Below the pieces are notes generated by a model that saw only the letters and a program-made list of their open reading frames with translations, had not been told where the DNA came from and made no database searches. From Halorubrum depositum (lineage in GTDB: Archaea; Halobacteriota; Halobacteria; Halobacteriales; Haloferacaceae): a stretch of DNA of 64,000 nt. Positions 46,475-50,811 of the stretch are shown here, piece by piece. The stretch lies in the NCBI RefSeq assembly GCF_007671725.1, contig NZ_VCNM01000003.1, forward strand, positions 62,001 through 126,000, in the 5' to 3' direction. The number at the start of each line of letters is the position of its first letter. Positions within the stretch are counted from its first letter, which is position 1. Made by a program: the position numbers and the translations under genes.

Positions 46475-46526
46475 ACGTCCTGACGGAGTCTCACGCGAGC
46501 GGAGCGAGCGTGAGGCACGTCAGGAC
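46475..46526. repeat. Hairpin built from the tRNA-Arg 3' end
   Basis: ACGTCCTGACGGAG at 46475-46488 duplicates the 3' end of the tRNA-Arg gene (46571-46584). GTCCTGACG at 46477-46485 pairs with CGTCAGGAC at 46518-46526, and inside it CTCACGC pairs with GCGTGAG. The whole forms a long hairpin immediately downstream of the tRNA gene. Confidence 0.65.
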
Positions 46527-46571
46527 CGAACGCCGCGGCTGCCGAACGAAGTGAGGCAGCCGCAAAGTGAA

Positions 46572-48406: not shown

Positions 48407-48555
48407 TCGGACGGCGGCGCGACGGGGGGATGGTCGACCGCCGGAGCGGCGGTCGACGACGAGAGCGACGCGCCGAGTAGCCGCGACGCCAGCGCTCGGG
48501 CGCGGAGACGCCGGTAACGGAAAGCGTTATACGGTACACGGACGCGACTGTGTGT

Positions 48556-48987
48556 ATGAGTGTCGAGTTGCCGTTCGCGCCGGTCGACGGGATCATCCGG
48601 CGGAACGCCGGGGAGCTCCGGGTCAGCGCCGACGCCGCCGAGGAGCTGGCGCGCCGCATCCAGTTGCACGGCGCGGAGCTGGCGATCGACGCGGCCGAAC
48701 GGGCAACCGAGGACGGGCGGAAGACGCTGATGGCCGCCGACTTCGGCGTCGAACAGGTGATCGCTCGCGAGGAGCTCACCCTGCCCGTCGCGCCCATCGA
48801 TCGAATCGCGCGGCTCCGGATCGACGACCGATACCGGGTCGGCGTCGACGCGCGGATCGCGCTGGCCGACATCCTCGAGGACTACGCCGACAACGTCGCG
48901 AGCGCGGCCGCGACGCTCGCGCGACACGCCGACCGACGGACCGTACAGGCCGAGGACATCGAGACGTACTTCGCCCTGTTCGAGTAG
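48556..48987 (+). CDS. Archaeal histone, tandem two-fold form
   Basis: A 143 aa protein consisting of two histone folds in tandem. The first is LPFAPVDGIIRRNAGELRVS, then AEELARRIQLHGAELAIDAA and LMAADFGVEQVIARE. The second is LPVAPIDRIARLRIDDRYRV, then ARIALADILEDYADNVASAA and VQAEDIETYFALFE. The fused pair forms an internal dimer, as in haloarchaeal HpyA/HstA; it is acidic compared with other archaeal histones. An element TTATAC at 48527-48532 lies about 25 bp upstream, so the transcript is probably leaderless from the ATG at 48556. The histone deacetylase gene follows with no gap. Confidence 0.94.
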   Translation: MSVELPFAPVDGIIRRNAGELRVSADAAEELARRIQLHGAELAIDAAERATEDGRKTLMAADFGVEQVIAREELTLPVAPIDRIARLRIDDRYRVGVDARIALADILEDYADNVASAAATLARHADRRTVQAEDIETYFALFE

Positions 48988-49992
48988 ATGCGGTTCGGCT
49001 ACAGCGAGCGGTGTCTCGCGCACGACACGGGGGAGCGACACCCGGAGAACCCGGACCGACTGCGCGCGATCCGACGCGGCCTCGCCAAGCGGCACGGCGT
49101 CGAGTACACCGAGGCGGACCCGGCGACCCGCGCGGAGGTCGTCGCCGTTCACGACGCCGAGTACGTGGACGAGCTCAAGGCGTTCGTCGACGACGGGGGC
49201 GGGAGCTGGGACCCCGACACCGTCGCGAGCGGGGGGACGTGGGACGCCGCGCTCACCGCCGCGGGCCTCGCGCAGTGGGCGGCCCAGTCGGCGCTCGACG
49301 GGGCCGACGGCCGCGACACCCCCTTCGCGCTCGGCCGCCCGCCGGGCCACCACGCGGTTCCCGACGACGCGATGGGCTTCTGCTTTTTCAACAACGCCGC
49401 CGTCGCGGCCCAGACCGTCCTCGACGCGGGCGACGCGGACCGGGTCGCGATCTTCGACTGGGACGTCCACCACGGGAACGGCACGCAGGACGTGTTCTAC
49501 GACCGGGGCGACGTGCTCTACTCGTCGATCCACGAGGACGGGCTCTACCCGGACACCGGCGACCTCGAGGAGACCGGCCGCGGCGAGGGGGAGGGGACCA
49601 CGGTGAACCTCCCGCTGGCCGCCGGTGCCGGCGACGGCGACTACCGGTACGCGATCGACGAGGCGATCGCGCCGGCGATCGATCGGTTCGACCCCGATCT
49701 GCTGATCGTCTCCGCGGGGTTCGACGCCCACCGCCACGACCCGATCTCGCGGATGCGCGTCTCCTCGGAGGGGTACGCGATGATGACCGATCGGATCCGG
49801 TCGGTCGCCGACGACGTCGGCGCGGCGGAGGCCTACGTGCTCGAAGGCGGCTACGGGCTCGACACCCTCGCCGAGGGCGTCTCAATGGTTCACGAGACGT
49901 ACGACGGGCGAACCCCGGTCACCGACGACGAGGAGCCGGACGCGAAGACGGAATCGTTAGTGTCGGAGCTGCGGGAGCTGCTCGACCTGTAG
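48988..49992 (+). CDS. Histone deacetylase family protein (class II/AcuC-like)
   Basis: A 334 aa zinc-dependent amidohydrolase. Family signatures in order are HPENPDRLRAIRRGL, VHDAEYVDEL, GRPPGHHAVPDDAMGFCFFN (His-His pair of the active site), VAIFDWDVHHGNGTQDVFYD (zinc Asp and His), LLIVSAGFDAHRHDPIS and YVLEGGYGLDTLAEGV. It probably removes acetyl groups from lysines or polyamines; in Haloferax the neighbouring enzyme is an HdaI-type deacetylase. Its ATG follows the histone stop without a gap, so the histone itself, or a chromatin-linked protein, is an attractive substrate. That link is inference. Confidence 0.93.
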   Translation: MRFGYSERCLAHDTGERHPENPDRLRAIRRGLAKRHGVEYTEADPATRAEVVAVHDAEYVDELKAFVDDGGGSWDPDTVASGGTWDAALTAAGLAQWAAQSALDGADGRDTPFALGRPPGHHAVPDDAMGFCFFNNAAVAAQTVLDAGDADRVAIFDWDVHHGNGTQDVFYDRGDVLYSSIHEDGLYPDTGDLEETGRGEGEGTTVNLPLAAGAGDGDYRYAIDEAIAPAIDRFDPDLLIVSAGFDAHRHDPISRMRVSSEGYAMMTDRIRSVADDVGAAEAYVLEGGYGLDTLAEGVSMVHETYDGRTPVTDDEEPDAKTESLVSELRELLDL

Positions 49993-50369
49993 GCGGGGGT
50001 CGACCGCGACGGTCGTCCGCGGTGAGGGCACGACCGAATCGACGCTCCGACCGCTCCGCTCGTCGATTAGCGACGACAGAAACGCCCGGAGCGGGATTTG
50101 AACCACAGTCGTTCCGCTCGTTTCACTCGCTTCACTCCCTGATTCAAATCCCTCTGTCTGAGTTCGTCGTCGCCGGACTCGCTCGTCGCTTCGCTCCTCG
50201 CTCGTAGTCGGCGACGACAGAAACGCCCGGAGCGGGATTTGAACCGGAATCAGACGTGCTCGCTCACTCCGTTCGCTGCGCGCGACTGATAGGGTTCAAA
50301 TCATCAGGCGCTTCGCTACCGCGGCACTCACTCGTCGCTGTCGCTCCTCGTTCGTTGTTGCGGTAGCGA
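49993..50369. repeat. Region of tRNA-Asp 3'-end copies forming hairpins
   Basis: No gene is evident. A 35-bp direct repeat (starts GCGACGACAGAAACGCCCGG, ends GGATTTGAACC) lies at 50070-50104 and 50211-50245. Its last 22 bases equal the 3' end of the tRNA-Asp gene. Each copy is paired with a later inverted arm: GGGATTTGAA (50093-50102) with TTCAAATCCC (50143-50152), and GATTTGAACC (50236-50245) with GGTTCAAATC (50293-50302). The two hairpins use different stem bases. Short CGCTC/GAGCG-type blocks fill the rest. Confidence 0.75.
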
Positions 50370-50373
50370 AAGA

Positions 50374-50446
50374 CGCCCGGAGCGGGATTTGAACCCGCGT
50401 CACGACCGTGACAGGGTCGTATGATGGGCCACTACACCATCCGGGC
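50374..50446 (-). tRNA. tRNA-Asp (anticodon GTC), first copy
   Basis: A 73-base cloverleaf on the minus strand: acceptor GCCCGGA with TCCGGGC, D-arm with TGGTGTAGTGGCCCATCA, anticodon arm CGACC-CTGTCAC-GGTCG (anticodon GTC), T-arm GCGGG-TTCAAAT-CCCGC, discriminator G. It is identical in sequence to the copy at 50476-50548. Two copies of its 3' end lie further downstream. Confidence 0.95.
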
Positions 50447-50475
50447 AAACAGCGACAAAAGCCCCGAACAGGGGA

Positions 50476-50548
50476 CGCCCGGAGCGGGATTTGAACCCGC
50501 GTCACGACCGTGACAGGGTCGTATGATGGGCCACTACACCATCCGGGC
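50476..50548 (-). tRNA. tRNA-Asp (anticodon GTC), second copy
   Basis: Base-for-base identical to the copy at 50374-50446 and separated from it by 29 bp, so the two are a tandem duplication and probably one transcript. The presumed promoter is at about 50560-50600, where the plus strand has GGCAAATAAGGC. Confidence 0.95.
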
Positions 50549-50811
50549 TTGTCGCAGTCATTGGTACCCCTGTCTGGCAAATAAGGCTTGTCATCGCCGG
50601 CGACGGTGGGGACGGGTGACAGGGGAAAGACGGCCGACCTCGTCGCCGATCGCGGCGGTAGTCTTTTGTACGATACCCGCATGAGTGTGAGTATCGCACG
50701 CCCCCGTCGTCGTGAGCCGCGCGCGGCGGAGTCGGTTGGCAAGTCTTATGCCGCTGGCCCATATAGCGATCTGTAGTATCTCGTGATAGCTTCTTTCAAT
50801 AACCACCACCC

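Follow-up and report, generated by a model that had tools for sequence, protein, structure and literature searches.

Tandem hairpin units behind haloarchaeal tRNA genes have arms that follow the host tRNA and a layout like that of RtT repeats

Behind the second of two tandem tRNA-Asp genes in Halorubrum depositum lies an array of hairpin units, and the final 22 bases of the tRNA recur without mismatch at the end of each unit. Units of this type follow about half of the tRNA genes in haloarchaea, and both of their arms follow the sequence of the host tRNA, T-stem bases included. The only other match to this layout found here comes from E. coli, where RtT repeats follow a few of the tRNA genes; the haloarchaeal units are laid out like RtT but are not called RtT here, and sequence homology between the two is not demonstrable. 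We read the array as RtT-like haloarchaeal tRNA tails. They would be transcribed with the tRNA, and recombination at the repeated tRNA ends would drive their turnover; we give this reading an even chance of being correct.

The tRNA-Asp array

Within the window, i.e., the whole stretch of 64,000 nucleotides that was analysed, both units lie 3' of the second tandem tRNA-Asp gene and consist, along the tRNA strand, of an H hairpin, an inverted T-arm, a core hairpin (C) and the 22-base tRNA-end copy (Table 1). The pattern GATTTGAA-N10-40-TTCAAATC occurs once in the window versus 0 times in 100 dinucleotide shuffles. No bacterial-type intrinsic terminator (GC stem followed by a T run) was found within positions 50037-50373. 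The neighbouring genes are, judged by their translations, an acetoin-utilisation/histone-deacetylase-like gene and RNA polymerase subunit genes. Two mechanically called ORFs, 48552-50207 (+) and 50296-50742 (-), cross the array and the tRNAs and are probably spurious. In addition, ARAGORN places doubtful tRNA-Ala calls on the antisense strand of some arrays (L003, 1657-1768; L014, 1898-2855).

An earlier note on this DNA had described a 35-bp direct repeat (50070-50104 and 50211-50245) containing the last 22 bases of tRNA-Asp; the repeat is exact and holds both 22-base copies. The two inverted arms described there were also recovered (GGGATTTGAA at 50093-50102 with TTCAAATCCC at 50143-50152, and GATTTGAACC at 50236-50245 with GGTTCAAATC at 50293-50302). 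The two stems do use different arm bases, as had been claimed, but the proposed compensating shift within the locus did not hold up, because two core families abut the same arm; true covariation of the arms is seen across tRNA species and not between the two stems of the tRNA-Asp locus. The region holds more than had been described, namely H1, H2 and a truncated H3 alternating with the two cores. The suggestion that the hairpins could be tRNA mimics is, in the strict sense, unsupported: Rfam tRNA and other families matched the real tRNAs only, and the array units remained without a match, RtT included.

Table 1. Coordinates of the tRNA-Asp array and of a second kind of unit in the window
Feature	Position	Strand	Details	Basis
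tRNA-Asp (GTC)	50476..50548	-	first of tandem pair	tRNA prediction and Rfam
tRNA-Asp (GTC)	50374..50446	-	second of pair; array follows its 3' end	tRNA prediction and Rfam
Unit 1, H hairpin (H1)	50303..50373	-	stem TTCGCTACCGC / GCGGTAGCGAA	
Unit 1, inverted T-arm	50293..50302	-	GATTTGAACC, reverse complement of tRNA T-loop	
Unit 1, core hairpin (C1)	50246..50292	-	C type 1, CTATCAGTCGCGCGCAGCGAACGGAGTGAGCGAGCACGTCTGATTCC	
Unit 1, tRNA-end copy	50224..50245	-	exact last 22 bases of tRNA-Asp	
Unit 2, H hairpin (H2)	50155..50223	-	stem GTCGTCGCCG / CGGCGACGAC	
Unit 2, inverted T-arm	50143..50152	-	GGGATTTGAA	
Unit 2, core hairpin (C2)	50105..50140	-	C type 2, AGGGAGTGAAGCGAGTGAAACGAGCGGAACGACTGT	
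Unit 2, tRNA-end copy	50083..50104	-	exact last 22 bases of tRNA-Asp	
H-like segment (H3)	50037..50082	-	truncated, at array end	
Second kind of unit, behind tRNA-Arg-GCG	46476..46526	-	hairpin arms CTCCGTCAGGACG (acceptor/T-stem end) and its reverse complement; T-loop replaced by another hairpin	

Occurrence across haloarchaea

The earlier note had proposed a search for similar structures at other tRNA loci, and units were indeed found at most tRNA types. Significant BLAST matches of the array in the same genome lie behind other tRNAs. For three haloarchaeal genomes of different families, the last 22 bases of each tRNA were searched within 600 bp, allowing for at most 6 mismatches and excluding full tRNAs; downstream copies of the own 3' end were detected for 15 of 48, 16 of 30 and 19 of 29 tRNAs, versus 1, 0 and 1 in the upstream control (pooled, 50 of 107 downstream versus 2 upstream).

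Of 393 genomes of the phylum, 57 contain the pattern GGGATTTGAA-N22-52-TTCAAATCCC, and all of the matches listed fall inside the taxonomic order of Halorubrum, Halobacteriales; the pattern read backwards as a control yielded 0 matches in these 393 genomes. In named haloarchaea, nearly all matches to the strict pattern lie 30-400 bp downstream of a tRNA and on its strand, and most run on into the acceptor end of the host tRNA, often with 20/20 bases. The exceptions are located on stretches without a called tRNA, several of them at the end of the stretch. A covariance model of the unit (R1), which was built from 44 units, matched 25 of 26 sampled haloarchaeal genomes, with as many as 30 scored matches in one genome (a lower bound where 30 was reached), and 3 of 132 other genomes, once each and weakly. 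In one genome, 17 of the 17 R1 matches listed lie 32-504 bp behind a tRNA, and non-tRNA loci of the own genome score at most 12.7 bits. No copies of the kind expected for dispersed MITE, REP or SMR repeats were present at non-tRNA sites among the pattern and R1 matches examined.

Plasmids contributed one Natronorubrum match, and phage records none. Viral contigs contain two matches to the TTCAAATCCC pattern, both of them non-tRNA coincidences, and 107 matches to the TTCGAATCC pattern; those examined were almost all bacterial tRNA-Ser-type genes (anticodon stem GGATTCGAAATCC together with the T-arm). One TTCGAATCC match is a haloarchaeal tRNA-Glu locus with one intact and one decayed unit (IMG/VR, L251 13744-14015), and part of this contig is probably host DNA.

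The arms are matched to the host tRNA

The inverted arm fits its own tRNA with a local score of 10.9, versus 8.7 ± 0.18 after permutation, a value that 0 of 5000 permutations reached. Even within one T-loop class, T-stem positions 62-64 gave 353 matches versus 303 ± 7 when permuted (0 of 5000). Examples are the tRNA-Phe unit, with arm CCGATTTGA for TTCAAATCGG, and the tRNA-Val-TAC unit, with arm GGTTCGAA for TTCGAACC. These permutations of own against other tRNAs are less biased than two further measures for which the units were chosen by their arm: the 44-unit alignment, in which the 12-bp arm helix plus two core pairs shows 59 two-sided changes versus 21.9 ± 4.2 in shuffles and far more than in slid versions, and the conservation of the copy across 175 units, which is 97-100% in the T-loop/T-stem part, 93-99% in the acceptor part and 88% at the discriminator. 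Many of the statistics in this work rest on related sequences.

A second kind of unit is located behind tRNA-Arg-GCG in the window (Table 1), next to an H-like hairpin at 46535-46563 (-). Gly, Lys and further Arg tRNAs are also followed by units of the second kind, as Ala tRNAs probably are.

Strand preference and transcription

When folded as RNA, the tRNA-sense strand outperforms the antisense strand for 68 of 92 H modules (p=1.3e-6) and for 44 of 54 C modules (p=2.5e-7), in sets that were deduplicated at 80% similarity and are not phylogenetically independent. With DNA folding parameters, the sense-strand advantage is present for C only. The haloarchaeal core alignment contains the motif C-G-A-R-C-G-N-A-G-Y-G-A, and 93 of 160 cores have the loop motif X-CGNAG-X' on the sense strand, versus 4 of 160 on the antisense strand. 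G-U pairs versus A-C mismatches show no consistent direction (H, 14 versus 21; C, 9 versus 25; inverted arms, 29 versus 13).

The earlier note had proposed to look for processed small RNAs, and an RNA from a locus that appears to be related has been reported. The RNA-seq analysis of Haloferax mediterranei includes HM4_S, an 81-nt RNA on the minus strand between HFX_0329 and the tRNA HFX_0330 (PMC5852579, Table 2), and the next genes are the tRNA HFX_0331 and rpoH, HFX_0332 (PMC5852579). By our count, twelve of the intergenic sRNAs in that table have a flanking tRNA. Judged by gene order, the HM4_S locus appears to be syntenic with the tRNA-Asp array locus; in Hfx. marinum, the tRNA-Asp beside rpoH carries a unit (58.9 bits). 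Transcription of the units is supported by this RNA, which may stem from a unit, in a haloarchaeon other than Halorubrum depositum.

Turnover of the modules

The tRNA-Asp locus differs between relatives. Among 37 orthologous loci of the genus, 6 have no unit, 22 have one, 6 have two and 3 have three, so that none of the units can be essential here. The units are always behind the last tRNA, and a scripted scan of the 37 loci found no insert between the tandem tRNA-Asp genes. About seven H types and three C types can be distinguished, and most of their combinations occur. Where flanks are about 96-97% identical between genomes, the arrays still differ, either by entire units delimited by tRNA-end copies or by a C module that is swapped between arm and copy. 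Some units are decayed. A deletion with its endpoints in two copies, or in two inverted arms, would be enough to generate the observed states, and near-identical units inside one array point to tandem duplication.

Comparison with RtT

Downstream of the E. coli tyrV gene, the last 19 bases of tyrV recur exactly three times with a spacing of 178 bp. In the Rfam structure of RtT, the copy pairs with the upstream arm GGGGAAGGAU to form the outer stem GGGGAAGGAU/AUCCUUCCCC. Behind each of the E. coli K-12 genes lysT, lysW, lysY, lysZ, lysQ and lysV, we found an RtT unit that ends in a copy of tRNA-Lys (L427 2055-3309, L428 6254-6485); inspection by eye of the arms behind lysT and lysW revealed CGTG(A/T)AGGAT with ATCCTGCACG in place of the Tyr arm. 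Bacterial and archaeal units thus obey one rule: the copy of the own tRNA end is paired with an inverted arm specific to that tRNA.

RtT (RF00391; tyrT/tyrV-rttR, lysT operon, lysV) thus resembles the haloarchaeal units in that single or tandem units are located directly behind tRNA genes, in that each unit ends in a copy of the 3' end of its own tRNA (19/19 bases for tyr, 18/19 for lys), in that the outer stem is formed by this copy and a tRNA-specific inverted arm, and in the string GAGCGAAGCGAG, which is common to RtT and the haloarchaeal cores. In contrast to the haloarchaeal units, RtT is bacterial and was seen here at no tRNAs other than those for Tyr and Lys, its copy includes the encoded CCA, its inverted arm spans the T-stem and acceptor instead of the T-loop, and a separate H module was not recognised. 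Covariance models did not demonstrate homology in either direction: the Rfam RtT model scored above its cut-off in 0 of 59 haloarchaeal genomes while the E. coli control was detected, and R1 reached about 10 bits on E. coli RtT (E 0.84). As summarised in PMC4986893, RtT is an RNA liberated from tRNA-operon transcripts and is linked to amino-acid limitation. Among the readings offered by the earlier note, substrates for tRNA-end processing come closest to the one preferred here, since the units are laid out exactly as in E. coli RtT, for which release from a tRNA-operon transcript has been described.

Other tRNA-associated and mobile repeats

The palindrome of Methanopyrus kandleri (PMC5217627) is likewise archaeal and lies 10 bp behind about half of the tRNA genes; unlike the units described here, it has the fixed form CGTTA-N9-TAACG, is not tRNA-specific, lacks a tRNA-end copy and was reported to be species-specific (PMC5217627). 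The small mobile repeats and PATEs of Haloquadratum (PMC3119063) are non-coding repeats of roughly 110 bp with inverted repeats or palindromes, and the short-repeat-mediated deletions described for them would account for the loss of units here. They differ in that their targets are other mobile elements rather than tRNA ends, and in that a host tRNA does not dictate the sequence of their termini. The 3' end of a tRNA is also duplicated downstream of the gene by haloarchaeal elements integrated at tRNA genes (SNJ2-type and other integrases), but these are of kilobase size and carry integrase genes, and the one tested lacked an inverted arm, H and C. Some partial tRNAs that have been ascribed to integrated elements may be tRNA-tail units. 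The open-access literature, as far as it was searched, contains only passing mentions of partial tRNAs beside tRNAs (PMC7921747), which is not proof that the units are undescribed.

Alternative explanations

The main rival to the RtT-like reading is a selfish or neutral DNA repeat without RNA function: small non-coding mobile hairpins of the MITE, REP or SMR type would insert at tRNA 3' ends, duplicate their target and then decay. We consider this rather unlikely. The presence/absence variation, the shuffling of modules and the decayed units would all be expected, and the cores are enriched in d(GCGNAGC)-type loops, which are very stable in DNA. Furthermore, transposase-free repeats are abundant in haloarchaea (PMC3119063). 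Yet copies away from tRNA genes were not seen among the matches examined, no cognate enzyme and no empty site newly occupied by a unit came to light, and the structures are biased towards the tRNA-sense strand. Both arms match the host tRNA, which would not be the case for a mobile element that brings its own ends.

Two further explanations involve integrases. The earlier note had considered old integration scars. In this reading, each copy would be the attachment-site remnant of a virus or plasmid integrated at the tRNA 3' end. Archaeal attachment sites are usually tRNA 3' ends, and integrated elements have partial tRNAs at their flanks (PMC7921747, PMC8371274); in addition, the length of the direct repeats is suitable, and the tRNA 3' end is duplicated. 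A real integrated element is present at tRNA-Arg-TCG of the same genome, with attachment copies about 30.6 kb apart (G000:C2:334951-365595), of which the right-hand copy contains one mismatch (TCCAAATCC) and lies beside a 338-aa protein that we take, from its sequence, to be integrase-like. No H, inverted arm or C was found at the ends of this one element, and no halophage record matched the units, the sole haloarchaeal match among viral contigs being the host-type tRNA-Glu locus. The units are moreover only about 110-150 bp long, tandem, and composed of module families that recur across the whole class, which makes integration scars very unlikely. It is even less probable that the units are decoys, whose extra tRNA ends would draw integrases to the array and spare the tRNA gene. 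Up to three extra attachment-site copies beside the tRNA-Asp gene and the lack of an array at the one element-bearing tRNA tested are compatible with decoys, but the inverted arm, H and the conservation of structure would be left unexplained, and no element was seen inserted in an array copy. The hairpin of inverted arm, core and copy also recalls attC sites of integrons, but this is an analogy only, as the 'cassettes' contain no gene.

Proposed mechanism

In the RtT-like reading, each unit would form a hairpin with a 3' arm that copies the T-arm and acceptor end of its own tRNA and a 5' arm that is the reverse complement of the T-loop and part of the T-stem. The core with its conserved YGARCGNAGYGAR motif would cap this hairpin, and the second hairpin, H, would part neighbouring units. 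As the RNA from the other haloarchaeon and the strand preference suggest, the units would be transcribed as a 3' trailer of the tRNA and would fold on the tRNA-sense strand. By analogy to E. coli RtT, tRNA 3'-end processing may cut this trailer into small RNAs, which is conceivable given that the terminal bases of every unit are those of the tRNA, and we infer that the units would be processed and have a function. The copy is, however, no obvious substrate of tRNase Z, because its acceptor strand is unpaired in units of the tRNA-Asp kind. The variable number of units, the G-U counts without a consistent direction and the low R1 score on RtT also speak against the RtT-like reading. As the comparison of relatives suggests, recombination between tRNA-end copies and between inverted arms would lengthen and shorten the arrays and rearrange their H and C modules, and the same recombination would keep the copies identical to the host tRNA.

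A bolder proposal is that enterobacterial RtT and the haloarchaeal units constitute one class in two domains, in which both arms are rewritten for each tRNA, and the inverted arm may pair with either the downstream copy or the T-arm of the tRNA itself and so act as a folding switch for tRNA maturation. We regard this as quite unlikely.

Significance

So far, RtT has stood apart as a peculiarity of a handful of enterobacterial tRNA operons. With the same layout behind about half of the tRNA genes of a whole archaeal class, and with arms matched to each tRNA, the phenomenon becomes general and open to testing. This raises the questions of how the match between both arms and the tRNA is upheld, whether RNAs arise from tRNA trailers and why repeats build up at tRNA ends. 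The antisense tRNA-Ala calls on arrays are a source of tRNA misannotation in haloarchaea. The arrays may also explain some 'partial tRNA' annotations and may underlie some of the sRNAs that were reported beside Haloferax tRNA genes.
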